A stretch of DNA of 64,000 nt, from assembly GCA_937981575.1 (NCBI GenBank), contig CALJNR010000012.1:1-64000 (forward strand). The letters are read 5' to 3'. Positions within the stretch are counted from its first letter, which is position 1. Each line of letters begins with the position of its first letter. The stretch is from an uncultured Clostridia bacterium. GTDB taxonomy: Bacteria > Bacillota > Clostridia > Lachnospirales > Cellulosilyticaceae. The position numbers and the translations under genes were made by a program. The notes beneath the pieces are model-generated. The model did no database searches, was not told the DNA's origin, and was given only the letters and a program-made list of their open reading frames with translations. This document shows, piece by piece, positions 1 to 21,223 of the stretch.

Positions 1-270
1 ACAAACCTTATAGATGAATACGAAAATAAGAATAAAAACTTAAAGGATAAAAAACAACGACTATTAAAAATTCAAAATATAGCTCAAATGCAATTAACAG
101 ATAAAAACGAGATTACCGATGAAATGATTAGAGATTCCGTAAGCAAAATTATCATAAATAACAATGAGGAGATTACCGTAATTCTAAACGGTAATTTCCA
201 AATTCAATCACAATATATAATAAATGATAAACATACATATGCAGATGTGACCGATACTAGATCGTATTGA
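1..270 (+). CDS. Large serine recombinase, C-terminal end only (5' end outside window)
   Basis: The reading frame is open from base 1 to the TGA at 268-270, so only the last 89 residues are visible. They begin with a lysine- and asparagine-rich helix that suggests a coiled coil. The stretch ITDEMIRDSVSKIIINNNEE follows, and it resembles the strand-helix segment that closes many large serine recombinases of phages and integrative elements. The catalytic domain and zinc ribbon would lie to the left of the window. The last few codons and the stop appear to be supplied by the comM-like gene that follows, so this gene probably abuts its own attachment site. The family call rests on the tail alone, so it is moderate. 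Confidence 0.6.
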   Translation, partial: TNLIDEYENKNKNLKDKKQRLLKIQNIAQMQLTDKNEITDEMIRDSVSKIIINNNEEITVILNGNFQIQSQYIINDKHTYADVTDTRSY

Positions 271-640
271 TATTCATCTTGAAACCCACTGTCCTACAGT
301 AAATGACCTGAACACGCCTCATTCTATCTCATCTGAAGAATTGTACAGCAAAGTTAAAACAGCACTAGCTATACAAAGTGAACGCTATAAAGATACTCCG
401 ATAAACTTTAACAGTCAAATTCCATCTAGCAAACTTAAAAAGTATTGTCATTTAACTTCAGATGCCCATGATCTATTAAACAGTTGGTTTGCAAACTCTT
501 CATCCAGTGTCCGCGCTTATGATAAAATCCTACGTTTGGCACTTACTATTTCAGATTTAGCCGAAGCCTCTCGTATTGATACCTCTCATATCTCTCAAGC
601 TATACAGTTTAGACTCCTAGATCATAAATTTTGGGCATAA
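251..640 (+). pseudogene. comM: comM/yifB-type Mg-chelatase-like ATPase, 3' fragment
   Basis: This frame opens after a TGA at 248-250 and starts with ILDRIDIHLE, which matches the LDRIDIH segment in the AAA+ part of ComM/YifB. It continues through the C-terminal helical domain (SSVRAYDKILRLALTISDLA, then AIQFRLLDHKFWA), the normal end of the family. Only about 129 of roughly 500 residues remain. There is no start codon at the break, and the first ATG-like possibility (TTG at 341) has no ribosome site. The upstream part is replaced by the tail of a serine recombinase. I infer that an element integrated inside the gene. Full-length ComM is a helicase-like protein linked to natural transformation and branch migration. 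Confidence 0.75.
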
Positions 641-641
641 A

Positions 642-679
642 AAAACTATATTAAATGGATTTTCATTTAATATAGTTTT
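642..679. terminator. Bidirectional terminator between comM fragment and nrdR
   Basis: A perfect 16-bp inverted repeat (642-657 with 664-679) with a 6-base loop lies between two convergent genes. The A-run on one side and T-run on the other let it act on both strands. It overlaps the last bases of nrdR. Confidence 0.75.
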
Positions 680-1136
680 ATTGTTTTAGCTTTCTAATAA
701 CTTCAAGTTCAGTAATAAATTCTTCAATACTCGTAAACTGTTTGTAAACTGAAGCAAAACGTATATAGGATACTTCATCTAAAGCTTTTAAACTCTCCAT
801 TGCCATCTCTCCAAGAATAGTCGAAGAAAGCTCTTTTGTTTCCATCCCGCTTATCTGGTTTTCAATTTCATCAACTAATAATTCTATTTGTTCTAAAGTA
901 ATGCTTCTTTTATTACAGGAACGTAATATACCCTTTAGCAACTTGTCTCTGTCAAAGGGTTCCCTAGTTAAGTTCTTTTTAACAATCATAACAGGAACTG
1001 TTTCTATTTTTTCATATGTAGTAAATCTCCTGTCACATTTTTCACATTGTCTTCTTCGTCGTATGGATTCATTATCATTTAAGGGTCTAGAATTAAGTAC
1101 TTTTGAGGCACTATACCCACAATAAGGGCATTTCAT
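678..1136 (-). CDS. nrdR: Transcriptional repressor NrdR
   Basis: The 152-aa protein matches the usual NrdR length. An N-terminal zinc ribbon is formed by C3, C6, C31 and C34 (CPYC and CEKC). An ATP-cone domain follows from about residue 46 to 136, with the typical VPVMIVKKNLTREPFDRDKL start. NrdR senses ATP/dATP levels and represses ribonucleotide reductase genes by binding NrdR boxes. No reductase genes lie in this window. It is the last gene before the comM junction and sits downstream of the sporulation sigma operon, as in many Clostridia. Confidence 0.95.
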   Translation of the reverse strand: MKCPYCGYSASKVLNSRPLNDNESIRRRRQCEKCDRRFTTYEKIETVPVMIVKKNLTREPFDRDKLLKGILRSCNKRSITLEQIELLVDEIENQISGMETKELSSTILGEMAMESLKALDEVSYIRFASVYKQFTSIEEFITELEVIRKLKQ

Positions 1137-1193
1137 TTATAATATCCTCCTAATTGTTATATACACAAAGATATCATATATTCAAAATAAAAG

Positions 1194-1460
1194 TCAATAC
1201 TCACTCTCTTTTAAATACTCGTCAATATCTATTTCAATAAGTATAATGTCTTCTCCAATTTTTTTGATCTTTTCCCACGGAATAGCGTATTCTAAATTTT
1301 TTCCGAAAAGTCCCATTATTTTACTGGGGCCTGGAATAATGACCTTATTAATCTTTCCTTCTTTTAAATCCAGTTCAATATCACAAATATACCCCAGTCT
1401 TGACCCATCTAAAGTATTTATAACTTCTTTGTGTTTCATATCCGCAATTCTCATCATCAC
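1194..1460 (-). CDS. YlmC/YmxH family PRC-barrel sporulation protein
   Basis: An 88-aa PRC-barrel protein of the YlmC/YmxH type, with the LDGSRLGYICDIELDLKEG and YAIPWEKIKKIGEDIILIE segments typical of the family. A G-rich ribosome site (GGGGGGAG) stands before a GTG-ATG-ATG run, so any of three adjacent start codons could be used. The family is found in spore formers and is often next to sigG. Its biochemical role is not known. It follows sigG with a gap of only 24 bases and probably belongs to the same transcript. Confidence 0.85.
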   Translation of the reverse strand: MMMRIADMKHKEVINTLDGSRLGYICDIELDLKEGKINKVIIPGPSKIMGLFGKNLEYAIPWEKIKKIGEDIILIEIDIDEYLKESEY

Positions 1461-1484
1461 TAACTCCCCCCACCATTAAACACT

Positions 1485-2258
1485 CTATATATATTTTTTC
1501 ATATGTTTAAGTGCCGTTTTTTCCAACCTGGACACTTGAGCTTGAGAAATTCCTATTTCATTGGCTACTTCCATCTGTGTTTTCCCCGAAAAAAAGCGTA
1601 GCATTAATATTTGTTTTTCTCTGTCATTTAACCTTTTCATTGCTTCTTTCAACGCAATATTTTCAAGCCAAATATCATCTTGACTTTTCTCATCACTTAC
1701 TTGATCCATAATATAAAGCGTGTCACTTTCATCATGATATACAGGCTCAAATAAAGATATAGGATCCTGAATAGCATCAAGTGCAAAAACGATATCTTCT
1801 TTTTTAATGCCTATTTGTTCTGCTATCTCTTGAATATTAGGCTCTTTGGAATTTTTTCTAATAAGCTGTTCTTTCGCTTGAAGTGCTTTGTAAGCAATAT
1901 CTCTTAAAGATCTACTAACCCGAATAGAATTATTGTCTCTAAGATAGCGTCTTATTTCTCCGATAATCATTGGTACTGCATAAGTCGAAAATTTAACATT
2001 TTGTGTGACATCAAAATTATCAATCGCTTTTATAAGCCCAATACATCCTACTTGGAATAAATCATCAACATGTTCGCCTCTGTTGTTGAATCTTTGAATA
2101 ACGCTGAGCACTAATCTAAGATTTCCTCTGATATATTCTTCTCTAGCCGCGTTATCACCTTCTTGGATAAGCTTAAATAATATTTCCTTTTGCTCTGTTG
2201 TTAATATAGGTAACTTAGCGGTATTTACTCCACAAATTTCTACTTTATTTATAGCCAT
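1485..2258 (-). CDS. sigG: Sporulation sigma factor SigG
   Basis: A 257-aa sigma-70 family protein whose start (MAINKVEICGVNTAKLP) and core (LRLVLSVIQRFNNRGEHVDD, then FQVGCIGLIKAIDNFD) closely match SigG of Bacillus. Region 4 ends in a helix-turn-helix (TQMEVANEIGISQAQVSRLE). SigG directs late gene expression in the forespore. It lies just downstream of sigE, as in Bacillus subtilis. In that species sigG is read through from spoIIG but is also transcribed from its own forespore promoter. The 85-base gap here leaves room for one, though I could not identify it with confidence. Confidence 0.95.
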   Translation of the reverse strand: MAINKVEICGVNTAKLPILTTEQKEILFKLIQEGDNAAREEYIRGNLRLVLSVIQRFNNRGEHVDDLFQVGCIGLIKAIDNFDVTQNVKFSTYAVPMIIGEIRRYLRDNNSIRVSRSLRDIAYKALQAKEQLIRKNSKEPNIQEIAEQIGIKKEDIVFALDAIQDPISLFEPVYHDESDTLYIMDQVSDEKSQDDIWLENIALKEAMKRLNDREKQILMLRFFSGKTQMEVANEIGISQAQVSRLEKTALKHMKKYI

Positions 2259-2343
2259 ATCACATGCCTCCTAGTTATACTACTCCAGCACAGGTTAAGT
2301 CTATAGATAATATTTTCCATAATCGTCTTATTTATTCAAATCA

Positions 2344-3096
2344 CTAACTCATTCTATTAATTTCCTTTTTTAATCTCAATATAATCTTTTTTTCCAGCCT
2401 TGAAATATAGGATTGCGAAATGCCAAGTAAATCTGCAACTTCTTTTTGTGTTTTTTCTTTTCCATGTGTACTAAATCCAAACCTTAATTCGACAATTTCT
2501 CGTTCTCTGTCTGATAACTTGAGAAGTGCTTGCTGCAGCAAATTTTTATCAACTTCTTCTTCAATATTCCTATAAATAATATCTGGTTCTGTCCCTAAAA
2601 TATCTGAAAGCAGAAGTTCATTTCCGTCCCAGTCAACATTTAAGGGTTCATCAATAGAAACCTCTGTTTTAAGTTTATTGGTACGCCTTAAAAACATCAG
2701 AATTTCGTTTTCAATACACCTGGATGCATATGTAGCTAATTTAATTTTTTTGCTAGGTTTAAAGGTATTAATTGATTTAATAAGTCCTATTGTTCCAATA
2801 GATATAAGATCTTCCATATGAATTCCAGTATTCTCAAACTTCCGTGCAATATAAACAACAAGCCTTAAGTTTCTTTCAATAAGTATTGTTTTAATCTGTT
2901 TGACTTCTTCTTCATATTCTTCCAGTTCTGAGAGTTTTAGAATTAATGCTTCTTCTTCCTCCCTTGTTAAAGGAGGTGGAAGCACCTCATTTCCTCCAAT
3001 ATAGTGAAGTGCACTTGGAAACTTGCATATTATTTTTATAAGTGCCCTTTGTACCTTTTTTCTGATTTCTTTTATCCACCATTCTACTAATCTCAT
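2344..3096 (-). CDS. sigE: Sporulation sigma factor SigE (pro-sigma-E)
   Basis: A 250-aa sigma factor with the SigE core ([40 protein letters not shown]) and a region 4 helix-turn-helix ([20 protein letters not shown]). About 30 basic and hydrophobic residues precede [14 protein letters not shown]. By comparison with Bacillus this is the pro-sequence, and processing by SpoIIGA occurs at the YIGG region. Active SigE runs early mother-cell gene expression. The gene follows spoIIGA by 11 bases, the classic protease-substrate operon. Confidence 0.95.
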
Positions 3097-3107
3097 GTTT
3101 GTGCCTC

Positions 3108-3974
3108 CTAATTTAATATAAATTCTGGATGAAGAAGTGCATGATATGATTTGTCATGAAATATATTATTAAAAGATATCCCAATAATACATCTGTCAAC
3201 ACTCTTCTTGAAATGACTCCGATGAATAGCAACCTCATCCACTTCAACTCCTAAAAGCATCCCTAAACTGCATCCAACACTATTAAAAGGAATAATATAA
3301 GAAGGAATAAATTCACCGTGACATACAAGTTCTAAAATATCGTTTTTATATTTATTAATAAGCTCTGCCTGTTTAGGTGTAAACAAATCCTTTAAAGCAT
3401 CATATGTAACAACAATTACTGGTTTATGTTCTATAGAAGTATACAGACAGTTTCCCGTATCTAAAATAGATTTAACCAAGATAACCTTGTTGGTATGCTT
3501 TATTGTAATGTCGTATTCAAATGCCGGAAAGATAAGCCTTCTTCTTATTTGATTAAAAGCCATGTAAAACGCTGCGGTGACGACAAATGCAATCATAACA
3601 AGCCAAATCATGCTGATTTCATTAACCTGAGCTTGATATCCACATATAAACCATAAACTAAAGGTCGTGCCTCCTATCAAACAAGCCGTTCCCATACATA
3701 AAATGTAGAGTTTTAGAAATGCTTTGAGAGACAGCGGTTTATAAAGATATAGGATAGGAAGTACTGGAACAATAAGTGCAAATATTAAGTAAGGGATGTT
3801 CTGCAGATGTGGTAGATAAAGAATAATACAATAAATTGCTGCAGCGATTGCACTTGCACCAAACAGTCTTAACTTCTTAACAGGCTTATTAAGTATCATG
3901 CTTACAATATAAAAAATCATCATATCCATGACAAGATTAATTAAAAAGAGTATGTCAATATAAACAACATACAC
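3108..3974 (-). CDS. spoIIGA: Sporulation sigma-E processing aspartic protease SpoIIGA
   Basis: A 288-aa protein with about five membrane segments in the first 140 residues and a cytoplasmic C-terminal half. That half carries the aspartic-protease-like motif LDTG with catalytic D172. SpoIIGA sits in the sporulation septum and cuts the pro-sequence from SigE in the mother cell. The start is a GTG at 3974 preceded by GGGGTG. An overlapping ATG is out of frame. It is first in an operon with sigE and sigG. Confidence 0.93.
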
Positions 3975-4009
3975 ATTATCACCCCAAGTAAATTTATTTT
4001 TGCTGAATA

Positions 4010-4047
4010 ACTATATTCTACAAGAAGTTATTTACAAATTTTGTAAA
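4010..4047 (-). promoter_or_regulatory. Candidate spoIIGA promoter with overlapping palindrome
   Basis: On the minus strand TTGTAA (4032-4037) and TATAGT (4010-4015) are 16 bases apart, a reasonable sigma-A-type promoter about 40 bases before spoIIGA. A 17-bp palindrome TTTACAAAATTTGTAAA (4031-4047) covers the -35 element. A TGTAGAA at 4016-4022 differs by one base from the Spo0A box TGTCGAA. The known spoIIG promoter is Spo0A-activated. Assignment of that role here is inference. Confidence 0.4.
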
Positions 4048-4062
4048 ATCGGTAGAGCAGAT

Positions 4063-4097
4063 AAAAAAAAAGATACGACAATATCGTATCTTTTTTG
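4063..4097 (-). terminator. Terminator downstream of ftsZ
   Basis: Stem AGATACGA/TCGTATCT (4071-4078 with 4084-4091) extended by flanking A and T runs, 12 bases after the ftsZ stop. On the minus strand it ends in a long U-run, separating the division cluster from the sporulation operon. Confidence 0.75.
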
Positions 4098-4108
4098 CTT
4101 AACTTTAT

Positions 4109-5218
4109 TTATCTGTTTCTTCTTAAAAACTGTGGTATTTCTACTTGAATATCTTTAATAGGTGTAAATTTCTCTTCCTTAGGCATACTTGGAATTTTTG
4201 GTGCTTTTACCTGCGCTTCAGCTTTTACTTTCTGGATAGGCTGAAAACTTTGTATGTTTACATCTTCATTTTGGAAATCTGTTGCAATAACAGTAATAAT
4301 AATCTCATCACCTAATTCATCATTAATAGAAGTACCGAAGATAATTTCAGCATCAGGATCAACAGCTTCTCTTATTAAGCTCATCCCCACATTAGCTTCC
4401 ATAAGTCCTAGGGTTTCTCCACCACACATGTTGACTAAAACACATCTTGCGCCATCAATGCTTGTATCTAAAAGCGGACTACTGATTGCGTATTTCACGG
4501 CTTCTTCAGCGCGGTTTTCACCAGTAGCCTTTCCAATACCCATGTGTGCAACACCTTTACTATTCATAATGGTTCTTACATCAGCAAAATCCAGGTTAAT
4601 GATTCCAGGATTAGAAATAAGATCCGTTATTCCCTGTACCCCTTGCTGCAAAATATCATCAGCTTTTCGGAATGCATCAACCATAGTTGTCTTTTTATCA
4701 ATAACTTGCAGGATTTTATCATTTGGTATAACAACTAAAGTATCTACACTCTGTTTGAGCTCAGCAATCCCTTTCTCTGCATTAATCATTCTTTTTCTGC
4801 CTTCAAAGCTAAAAGGTTTAGTTACCACCCCTACAGTAAGTATGCCTTGATCTTTGGCAATAGATGCAATAACTGGTGCAGCTCCGGTTCCAGTCCCACC
4901 GCCCATGCCTGCTGTAATAAACAGCATATCTGCACCTTTAATAGCTTGTATAATTTCTTCTCTGCTTTCTTCAGCGGATTTAGTTCCTATTTCAGGATTT
5001 GCTCCAGCCCCTAATCCTCTTGTTATTTTTTCACCTATCTGTATTTTAGTCGGTGCTCCTGATCTTGCTAAAGCTTGGTGATCAGTATTAACTGTAATAA
5101 ATTCAACGCCATTAAGTCCCTTTTCAATCATTCGGTCAACAGCATTATTACCTCCGCCGCCAACTCCTATTACTTTTATTTGAGCACCTTGTAATTCATT
5201 TTCCCATATTTCGAGCAA
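4109..5218 (-). CDS. ftsZ: Cell division protein FtsZ
   Basis: Tubulin-like GTPase that forms the division ring. The GTP-binding loop [10 protein letters not shown], the T7 segment ([15 protein letters not shown]) and a C-terminal tail ending IPQFLRRNR are all present. An ATG at 5236 is in frame, but AAGGGGGAG lies inside that extension, 6 bases before a TTG. The TTG at 5218 then gives [20 protein letters not shown], which aligns with other clostridial FtsZ starts, so I chose it (369 aa). It is the last gene of the division cluster and also has a promoter of its own. ftsA is not beside it. Confidence 0.95.
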
Positions 5219-5240
5219 AACAAACTCCCCCTTCATCAGA

Positions 5241-5269
5241 AGTATAATATTTTCAATTTATAATGTCAC
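5241..5269 (-). promoter_or_regulatory. Candidate ftsZ promoter
   Basis: GTGACA (5264-5269) and TATACT (5241-5246) on the minus strand with 17-base spacing, in the gap between ftsQ and ftsZ. This would allow ftsZ to be transcribed apart from the long upstream operon. Confidence 0.45.
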
Positions 5270-5280
5270 TGCTATAGTTT

Positions 5281-5997
5281 TTATGTAATTGGACTAAGTA
5301 TTGCTTGTCCATTTTTAATATTGGATAAATCTAAAACTCCCATATCATACACATCTTGTGCCTCAATGAGCCACTGGAGTTTTTTGTCAAAATCCCCTAT
5401 ATTCCCAATTATAACATCTAAGTTATCAACATACAAGTGAATTTGTTCAACGTTATAAACATCTATTTTTTTCACTTTATTTTCAAATTTATGCTTTTTT
5501 AGAATACGGATTATTTCTAAACCAGTTAATAAAGTATCTTCATTTTCAACTGGCAAATATTCGCCTATCTTAAATTTACTAAACCTAACCCCTTTTATAA
5601 TAGGAAGAGCAACATTATCTTTGTGCGTTTGCTCGATAACTTGTCCTTGTTCATCCAAACAAAGATATGTCCCCATAAAAGGAACATATCCCAAAGGTTC
5701 TCTTTCAGATACTCTAATAATCATTTTTCCTGGAAAAACATACTTCACTGAAACATCTCTGATATACGGAAGCCTCTGCAGCTGTTTTTTAACTTCCTTA
5801 GGCATCGTATTAAGAATATGATTATTATCCGCCATAGAAATTTTAATAATTTCCTCATCAGTATACCAATTATTATCTTGAACTTCAATATGTGTGATGG
5901 TCCACATAGGCAATGTCAAAATAATAACAGCTGACAGGATAAGCATAGCGACTATATATACTTTTTTCTTAAGTAATTTTCTATTATATTGTTTCAA
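5281..5997 (-). CDS. ftsQ: Cell division protein FtsQ/DivIB
   Basis: A 238-aa bitopic membrane protein. A short basic cytoplasmic tail and one membrane anchor (about residues 13-33) are followed by a POTRA domain (ITHIEVQDNNWYTDEEIIKI, then LQRLPYIRDVSVKYVFPGKM) and the FtsQ/DivIB beta domain. The protein links early and late division proteins at the septum through FtsL and FtsB/DivIC. It sits 6 bases after murA, in the normal cluster order murA-ftsQ-ftsZ. Confidence 0.9.
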   Translation of the reverse strand: MKQYNRKLLKKKVYIVAMLILSAVIILTLPMWTITHIEVQDNNWYTDEEIIKISMADNNHILNTMPKEVKKQLQRLPYIRDVSVKYVFPGKMIIRVSEREPLGYVPFMGTYLCLDEQGQVIEQTHKDNVALPIIKGVRFSKFKIGEYLPVENEDTLLTGLEIIRILKKHKFENKVKKIDVYNVEQIHLYVDNLDVIIGNIGDFDKKLQWLIEAQDVYDMGVLDLSNIKNGQAILSPIT

Positions 5998-10892: not shown

Positions 10893-12267
10893 ACTTCACC
10901 TTTCCTACCGCTTCTACCAGTTCTTCAAAATGCATACCCCTGGAGGCTTTAAACAATACAGTATCCTCCGAACGTATAAGGCTATCAACATTTTTCAAAA
11001 ATTCCTCTTTTGTGTGAAAGTACATAACCTTTAATACTGAAGATGTATCCACTGCACCTTCATAAATGTGTCTTGCCAATGTTCCGACCGCATATAAAAT
11101 ATCGATTTCAGCTTCACACGCATATCTGCCGACTTCTTGATGAAGTGATACGGCATAGTCTCCCATCTCCAGCATATCCCCAAGCACTGCTATTATACGC
11201 TTGGCTCCTGGATAATTTTTAAGCACTTTAAGCGCTGCGTGCATGGAATCTGGACTGGCATTATAGGTATCATCCATAACAGTTACTCGATTGCTAAATG
11301 TTTGAATATGCATTCTCATCTTACTTGGCACATACGAAGCAAGTCCATTTACAATCTCATCTTTCGTAAGGCCCAAGTGTTCCGCAATAGCCACAGCTGC
11401 CAAGGAATTGTAAACCATGTGCTCCCCTAATGCATTGATTTTGATCGAATATTTTTCATTAGGCGTAAAAATATCTGCCACCGTCGATTCTTTATCACTT
11501 TTAATATTTTCAGCATAATAAGCACTATGATGAGACATTCCATAATAGATTGTTTTATAAGGCATACCTTTAACTGTTTTAAGCATATCATTATCACCAT
11601 TAATAACCAAAAGCCCTTTGTCATCTAGCCCATCTAGTATCTCTAATTTTGCTTTAAGTATCCCTTCTCTGCTGCCTAGATTTTCAATATGTGATGTCCC
11701 AATATTTGTAATAACTGCTATTTGTGGATGTGCAGTCATGCTAAGATTATGAATCTCTCCAAAGTGGTTCATCCCCATTTCTAATACAGCTACTTGATGT
11801 GTTTTGTTGAGCTTAAAAAGAGTAAGAGGGAGTCCAATTTCATTGTTATAGTTTCCTTCAGTCTTGTGTACGTTGAATTTTGCACTGAGCACAGCAGCAA
11901 TAATTTCTTTAGTACTTGTTTTTCCAACACTACCTGTTACAGCAATAACAGGTATTTCGAAAAGACTTCTATAATAGGCAGCCAGCTTTAAAAGGGCTTC
12001 CTTTGTGTCTTTTACCCAAATAGTACATAGTCTGTCATCTTGCACGATGCATTCCTCAGTTAATGTTGCAGCTGCTCCCTGGTCAAATACTTGAGATATA
12101 AATTTATGCCCATCAAATCTATCCCCTTTTAATGGGACAAATAAGCTAAACTTATCAATCTGCCGCGAATCAGTATTAATATGCCGAATGATATGACCTC
12201 CCAAACGGTCAGGATTTAAACACCTGCCTCCTACAGCTTGAATAACAGCTTGCAATTCTAACTCCAT
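10882..12267 (-). CDS. murF: UDP-N-acetylmuramoyl-tripeptide:D-alanyl-D-alanine ligase MurF
   Basis: A 461-aa Mur ligase that attaches D-Ala-D-Ala to complete the pentapeptide precursor. The N-terminal substrate domain contains INTDSRQI. The P-loop TGSVGKTSTKE is at about 111-121 and the central motif NAVLEMGMN-like stretch (VAVLEMGMNHFGEI) is clear. The C-terminal domain has DDTYNASPDSM. Its ATG shares a base with the murE stop codon (TAATG), indicating tight coupling. Confidence 0.95.
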   Translation of the reverse strand: MELELQAVIQAVGGRCLNPDRLGGHIIRHINTDSRQIDKFSLFVPLKGDRFDGHKFISQVFDQGAAATLTEECIVQDDRLCTIWVKDTKEALLKLAAYYRSLFEIPVIAVTGSVGKTSTKEIIAAVLSAKFNVHKTEGNYNNEIGLPLTLFKLNKTHQVAVLEMGMNHFGEIHNLSMTAHPQIAVITNIGTSHIENLGSREGILKAKLEILDGLDDKGLLVINGDNDMLKTVKGMPYKTIYYGMSHHSAYYAENIKSDKESTVADIFTPNEKYSIKINALGEHMVYNSLAAVAIAEHLGLTKDEIVNGLASYVPSKMRMHIQTFSNRVTVMDDTYNASPDSMHAALKVLKNYPGAKRIIAVLGDMLEMGDYAVSLHQEVGRYACEAEIDILYAVGTLARHIYEGAVDTSSVLKVMYFHTKEEFLKNVDSLIRSEDTVLFKASRGMHFEELVEAVGKVKCDE

Positions 12268-20224: not shown

Positions 20225-21076
20225 TTATTCTTGATTATTAGGCTTTCGACATATAAAAATACCAATTATTCCCAAGATTATCGATAAAATGGCAACAACT
20301 TGTGATATAGGAATCTGTGTACTGCCTAATAATAGTTGATCGGTTCTTAATCCTTCAATCCAAAAACGTCCGATTCCATAACCTATGAGATAAAGCATAA
20401 AGATTTCTCCGGAAAACTTACGACGTTTTCTATAAACAAGCAATAAAACTAATAAAACAGCATTCCATAGAGATTCATAAAAAAATGTTGGGTGAACCTG
20501 TATATATTCTGCCCCAAAAGCAGTCTGTACATGTTCTAATATATTCTGCGATAATGGCCATTTGGCTTCACTTTTTAGAATTCTCATAGCAAATAAATTA
20601 TTTGTATAGTCCCCGAAGGCTTCTTTATTGACAAAATTGCCATAACGGCCAATAGCCTGTCCTAATAAAAGGCCATAGGAGGCGATATCAGCAAAAGACC
20701 AAAAATCAACTTTTTTCTTTTTAGTATAAATGAGTGCTACAATAGCCGATGCAATAACTGCACCATATATAGCGATTCCCCCTTCTCTGATATTAAAAAT
20801 ATGAGCTGGATTCTCTCTATAATAATCGAAGTTAAAAACAACATAATAAAGTCTTGCTCCTAACAGAGCAAAAATAATATCATATAAGATAAAATCAATA
20901 AAAATATCAGGATGCAGTCCTTCTTTTTTCGCAATATAACTTGCAAGAACCGTTCCAAGTATAATCCCTGTCGTCAGTATAATCCCATACCAGTAAACAG
21001 AAATTCCAAAGATCTGGAAAGCAACAGAATTAATATTAAAAAATAGATTGAGATTTGGAAAATATATATTTGGCAT
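20225..21076 (-). CDS. lgt: Phosphatidylglycerol:prolipoprotein diacylglyceryl transferase Lgt
   Basis: A 283-aa membrane protein with about seven membrane segments. The Lgt signature (GQAIGRYGNFVNKEAFG) is at about 142-158, and further conserved parts are EGGIAIYGA and GRFWIEGLRTD. Lgt puts diacylglycerol on the lipobox cysteine of prelipoproteins. It is a single gene here, between a small sporulation peptide and a divergent small membrane peptide. Confidence 0.93.
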   Translation of the reverse strand: MPNIYFPNLNLFFNINSVAFQIFGISVYWYGIILTTGIILGTVLASYIAKKEGLHPDIFIDFILYDIIFALLGARLYYVVFNFDYYRENPAHIFNIREGGIAIYGAVIASAIVALIYTKKKKVDFWSFADIASYGLLLGQAIGRYGNFVNKEAFGDYTNNLFAMRILKSEAKWPLSQNILEHVQTAFGAEYIQVHPTFFYESLWNAVLLVLLLVYRKRRKFSGEIFMLYLIGYGIGRFWIEGLRTDQLLLGSTQIPISQVVAILSIILGIIGIFICRKPNNQE

Positions 21077-21223
21077 AAAACTCCTCCTTTTATCCTAATA
21101 TTATATTGTATTTATCCGGAGATGTAAATGTCTGCATAACTAAAGGATCTTCATAAATAAAGAATAAATACATCATGTTTTATTTATAATAATGGTGTAG
21201 CATTCACCTAAGGAGGTTAGATA

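Follow-up and report, generated by a model that had tools for sequence, protein, structure and literature searches.

The comM-type Mg chelatase/ATP-dependent protease gene is the most notable target of large serine recombinases (LSRs), accounting for 12.4% of the predicted site-specific LSRs, and competence genes are enriched among LSR targets (Durrant et al. 2022, PMC10083194). The Wolbachia sr1WO prophages encode a serine recombinase and sit between two Mg chelatase gene halves (PMC9203015), and the LSR prophage of Listeria phage A118 is integrated in comK, with att sites that are partly palindromic (PMC3556126). In Acinetobacter, disruption of comM lowers transformation; AbaR inserts there by Tn7-like transposition, and some other interruptions are caused by IS and defence islands (PMC11472951). 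According to a review, archaea are the only known source of integrases that disrupt the gene encoding them (PMC8371274).

The locus analyzed here shares with the elements of PMC10083194 the LSR, the target (a comM-type Mg chelatase-like ATPase gene) and the splitting of this gene by integration. It represents, however, one particular LSR lineage and host genus, and the likeness is drawn at the level of the gene. The likeness to Wolbachia sr1WO, whose host is unrelated, is likewise drawn at the level of the gene. The A118 prophage also splits a competence-linked gene by means of an LSR and also has partly palindromic att sites, but the gene is comK instead of comM, whereas the Acinetobacter interruptions likewise disrupt comM by mobile DNA and differ in the Tn7-like transposition of AbaR. 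The original prediction had implied that insertion of a serine integrase element into comM was novel; such insertions are in fact already documented as very common (PMC10083194; sr1WO, PMC9203015).

The window, i.e. the whole stretch of DNA that was analyzed, comprises bases 1 to 64,000 of contig C12 of the source genome (G000; 143 contigs, 3.56 Mb, 92.7% complete). The sequence to its left is not readable because C12 begins at window position 1. We consider it very probable that the window opens with the right-hand end, attR, of the genome of a temperate phage that its own LSR has inserted at a specific site in comM. The features on which this reading is based are the following:

1–270, + strand: 3′ end of the LSR (integrase) gene, sharing 83% identity across 87 aa with the LSR of the same-genus genome G004; the rest of the gene is cut off by the contig end
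within 1–270, + strand: codons from 259–261 onward (R, S, Y and TGA), made up mostly or entirely of comM sequence
247–252, + strand: GTGACC in the phage arm of attR, forming an inverted repeat with GGTCAC in the phage arm on C104
260–261, + strand: crossover dinucleotide GA of attR, from the comparison of attL and attR
268–270, + strand: TGA, stop of the integrated recombinase frame in the window sequence, provided by comM out of frame
260–640, + strand: 3′ part of comM (YifB/ComM-type Mg chelatase-like ATPase), from DRIDIH to the stop, matching PF13335 and rejoining the 5′ part on C104
678–1136, − strand: nrdR, the usual right neighbour of comM (order dprA-comM-nrdR in G001 and G002)

The open frame at 1–270 encodes 89 aa, and this tail alone gave no significant Pfam match. 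Its G004 relative is a protein of 525 aa that matches Resolvase (PF00239), Recombinase (PF07508) and Zn_ribbon_recom (PF13408), and its predicted fold contains long helices at residues 351–467, as in the coiled-coil of the phage-type LSRs. Because this relative is a full-length LSR, the window frame was assigned to the tail of an LSR. A second frame on the same strand, at 251–640, reads PILDRIDIHLETH... and matches Mg_chelatase_C (PF13335) with an E-value of 1.3e-25. A hairpin at 639–682, self-matching on the other strand, lies between the ends of comM and nrdR and is probably a shared terminator.

The other half of the gene was found by a Mg_chelatase search on contig C104 of the same genome, beside dprA. 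It encodes 380 residues, is normal up to GPLL, and is then followed by foreign DNA with a terminator hairpin, beyond which the element end carries genes on the opposite strand, one of them encoding an ArdA relative. In the uninterrupted relatives the gene order is dprA-comM-nrdR-ylmC; in the source genome it is divided between C104 (dprA and the 5′ part of comM) and C12 (the 3′ part of comM, nrdR and ylmC). When the left side of attL was joined to the right side of attR, the comM frame was restored and the attB coding sequence reads LSGPLLDRIDIHLETH. The element is thus bordered by the two comM halves, whose joining restores the frame, as for an LSR element inserted in comM.

Comparison of the two junctions located the crossover. 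The source attL reads GGACCCCTGCTG-GA-CAGAAAGGGTCACG on C104 (CTG-GA-CAG at the junction, with GA at 12135–12136), and attR reads CTA-GA-TCG in the window. Since GA represents the sole bases common at the junction, with differences on both flanks, we assigned it as the crossover dinucleotide. The attP site rebuilt by joining the element ends is GTGACCGATACTA-GA-CAGAAAGGGTCAC, in which the GTGACC/GGTCAC inverted repeat is centred on the GA core with 9 of 16 positions complementary. A short identical core, here of 2 bp, non-identical attP and attB, and an inverted repeat around the attP core are the features of LSR att sites. The attachment-site range previously predicted at 251–262 includes the exact crossover. 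The original prediction also stated that the recombinase tail runs directly into comM and seems to take its stop and last residues from it; both frames are indeed present, and most of the R codon, S, Y and the TGA come from comM. The proposed start of comM at LDRIDIH is correct only from the GA of the D codon (260) onward. The preceding P-I-L codons (251–259) are phage-derived comM look-alikes, because the crossover takes place at 260–261 and the 5′ part of comM on C104 keeps its own GPLL.

The same attR junction was found in three lysogens: the source genome, G004 and L086, a public MAG whose integrase is 85% identical. The reciprocal junction, attL, was found in two genomes, on contig C104 of the source and on contig C23 of G004, where the two junctions are 53,329 bp apart on the same contig. 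This recurrence, three times for attR and twice for the reciprocal junction, excludes a chance join. Conversely, the site is unbroken in three genomes of the same genus, G001, G002 and G003 (a partial contig, at the attachment point), and a recombinase search gave no match in any of the three. The original prediction thus proved right in expecting an integrated element left of the window (its attL is on C104, and its prophage type is judged from G004), another element end adjoining the 5′ part of comM (C104 of the source, C23 of G004), and relatives with comM intact across the site (G001, G002 and the partial G003).

The integrase tails of the source and G004 are 85% identical in DNA, and the adjoining 3′ parts of comM about 70%; judged from these sequences, the higher identity of the integrase tails is consistent with movement between hosts. 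L086 and G001, whose site is empty, have comM 3′ parts that are 96.6% identical. A search for attL in the bin of L086 gave no match; the L086 contig is probably mis-binned, because the sole comM of the bin is uninterrupted and only about 51% identical. In a survey for split comM among 392 genomes of the order, short-frame matches were mostly contig ends, and two real interruptions were found, at other codons. One, L076 (G056:C2, about 486.7 kb), lies next to SALTGGG and is due to a different LSR; the other, L074 (G182:C2, about 278.5 kb), is due to an AT-rich element beside NPCPCGYY.

We propose that the integrase would recognise the comM codons GPLLDRID as attB, and that strand exchange at GA would split comM into the 5′ part on C104 and the 3′ part at window 260–640. 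Integration would concomitantly remove the native end of the integrase, and comM would supply a few codons and a stop in its place. The C-terminus is swapped because attP sits within the 3′ end of the integrase frame. The source integrase is presumably active, and RDF-dependent excision would return comM to its exact original form.

In all three lysogens, the integrase stop lies in comM, out of the comM frame. It is preceded by R-S-Y in the source and by R-S-N-R-R-S-S in L086, while in G004 the R is followed at once by TAG. In the rebuilt circle, the frame continues 30 residues past GA (QKGSRTEIILDWFNYNDNKKTYRVNTYLAI in the source, QKGAQTEIILDRFEYNDNKKSYKVNTYLTI in G004); integration exchanges these roughly 30 C-terminal residues for a few encoded by comM. 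When the extension was searched in other genomes, significant matches were obtained only in the source and G004.

Read-through of this kind was also observed in related LSRs. The L087 frame reads through its att site into a further gene, and the LSR frames of L144 (about 5570–5690) and L151 (about 5570–5611) enter ABC-transporter ATPase genes out of frame at the Walker A codons (G-x-NGAGKTT), which suggests, at the sequence level, that these LSRs may target this highly conserved motif. The L096 frame reads into an ABC permease gene, and the integrase frame of Acetoanaerobium phage ANDSL2_ph1 into a comM fragment. The L096 element itself (about 305–5640, Mobilitalea sibirica) is about 5.3 kb long, contains the LSR and two frames of 327 and 797 codons, and splits the permease gene; its attL and attR have TAAACACCTGA in common. 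Two phage records contain comM sequence: L187 (PP197248.1, 15550–16110) corresponds to comM residues of about 189–354, ending at NPCPC and overlapping the integrase end, and L188 (PV036445.1, 58270–59169) to residues of about 1–301. Integration of these two phages might rebuild part of comM.

The exchange of the tail could represent a functional switch, in which a long integrase with the attP-encoded tail of about 30 residues, made from the circle, and a short comM-ended form, made from the prophage, would bias the reaction towards integration or excision. The extension indeed ends at the same position in the source and G004, directly before the terminator hairpin, and independent LSRs likewise read through attP or attR. 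We nevertheless find the switch improbable. Substitutions between the source and G004 are distributed over the three codon positions as 5/4/6 in the extension, few sites in all, as against 11/5/23 in the upstream tail, so that the third-position excess is lacking and this small sample gives no sign of selection on the extension at the protein level. The integrases of L096 and of L166, the latter apparently unintegrated, are 62% identical, and yet their post-core tails look unrelated. Furthermore, the final 22 residues of the G004 integrase (504–525) have AlphaFold pLDDT values under 50, and so does the post-core tail of L166, where most values are under 30. A conserved terminal strand past attP was also considered and rejected, given that the L096 and L166 tails do not resemble each other and the L166 tail is predicted to be disordered. 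We judged the tail swap to be a tolerated by-product and not a switch because the tail lacks conservation and lies beyond the part of the enzyme whose fold is predicted with confidence. The simplest reading of these models is that attP overlaps a predicted disordered end of the integrase frame where any tail would be tolerated; replacement of the C-terminus is presumably without functional cost.

If the switch were true, it would provide a bacterial serine-integrase counterpart of those archaeal integrases whose own gene contains attP. The SSV-type suicidal integrases also have attP inside the integrase gene; they are, however, tyrosine recombinases that are cut in two, whereas here a serine integrase exchanges its disordered tail alone and keeps its catalytic, zinc and coiled-coil regions in one frame. 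The likeness is only loose because the enzyme core is unbroken here. Phrase searches of the literature for LSR frames crossing attP found nothing specific, which is weak evidence of absence; read-through of attP by the integrase is a small, less described detail.

A full element of this type is seen in G004, where it is a 53.3-kb siphovirus-like prophage on one contig. Between attL and attR it carries a temperate tailed-phage gene set: large terminase, portal, major head protein, tape measure, tail-tip protein and amidase endolysin, together with a DNA polymerase, a DnaB-like helicase, a ribonucleotide reductase, the LSR, an ArdA relative and a Hin-like invertase. Adjoining genes in this prophage (L014; G004:C23, 62.1–66.2 kb) encode a C5 methylase, an NgoFVII-like endonuclease and a Z1-domain protein, a cluster that probably forms a restriction island; the ArdA relative is encoded by this phage as well. 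Tandem AT-rich repeat units (..ATATTATTATAGAAGAAACACCATCTAAATAGTTTT..) follow attL inside the prophage (G004:C23, about 20930–21150). By protein comparison, the closest phage and plasmid records are only about 25–35% identical.

In the source genome, only the element ends are assembled. Neither a terminase nor a recombinase body fitting the 1–270 tail was found in its assembly. A second, unrelated LSR of 550 aa is encoded at G000:C19, 71.8–73.5 kb, near a dUTPase-like gene. With its body missing and the visible end encoding an ArdA relative, a family that is common on conjugative elements too, the source element might be an ICE, an IME or a degraded island that uses the same integrase. We regard this as very unlikely. 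The first genes of the C104 element end are those of the left end of the G004 prophage, i.e. the ArdA relative and two further homologues over about 1.9 kb of shared sequence, and this phage-like genome, which carries the same integrase, is also listed as viral in IMG/VR (L048, 52,623 bp). Since the body is unassembled, we infer the phage nature of the source element from the shared end genes and the integrase instead of reading it directly; by this sequence comparison, it probably has the same phage gene content as the G004 prophage.

Finally, although the recombinase-comM join is located 260 bp from a contig end in a fragmented assembly, a chimeric contig is refuted with near certainty, because independent assemblies show the same join (two others, in one of them within a 485-kb contig), with the reciprocal join on C104.

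For comM, the locus thus provides an exactly mapped set of integrase, attP and attB from a Clostridia lineage, with GA as its core, together with a sister genome in which the full prophage is on one contig. Serine-integrase frames read through attP in several lineages, and therefore the C-terminus annotated for a prophage integrase can come from the host. When such integrases are cloned as tools, their annotated C-termini should not be trusted blindly.
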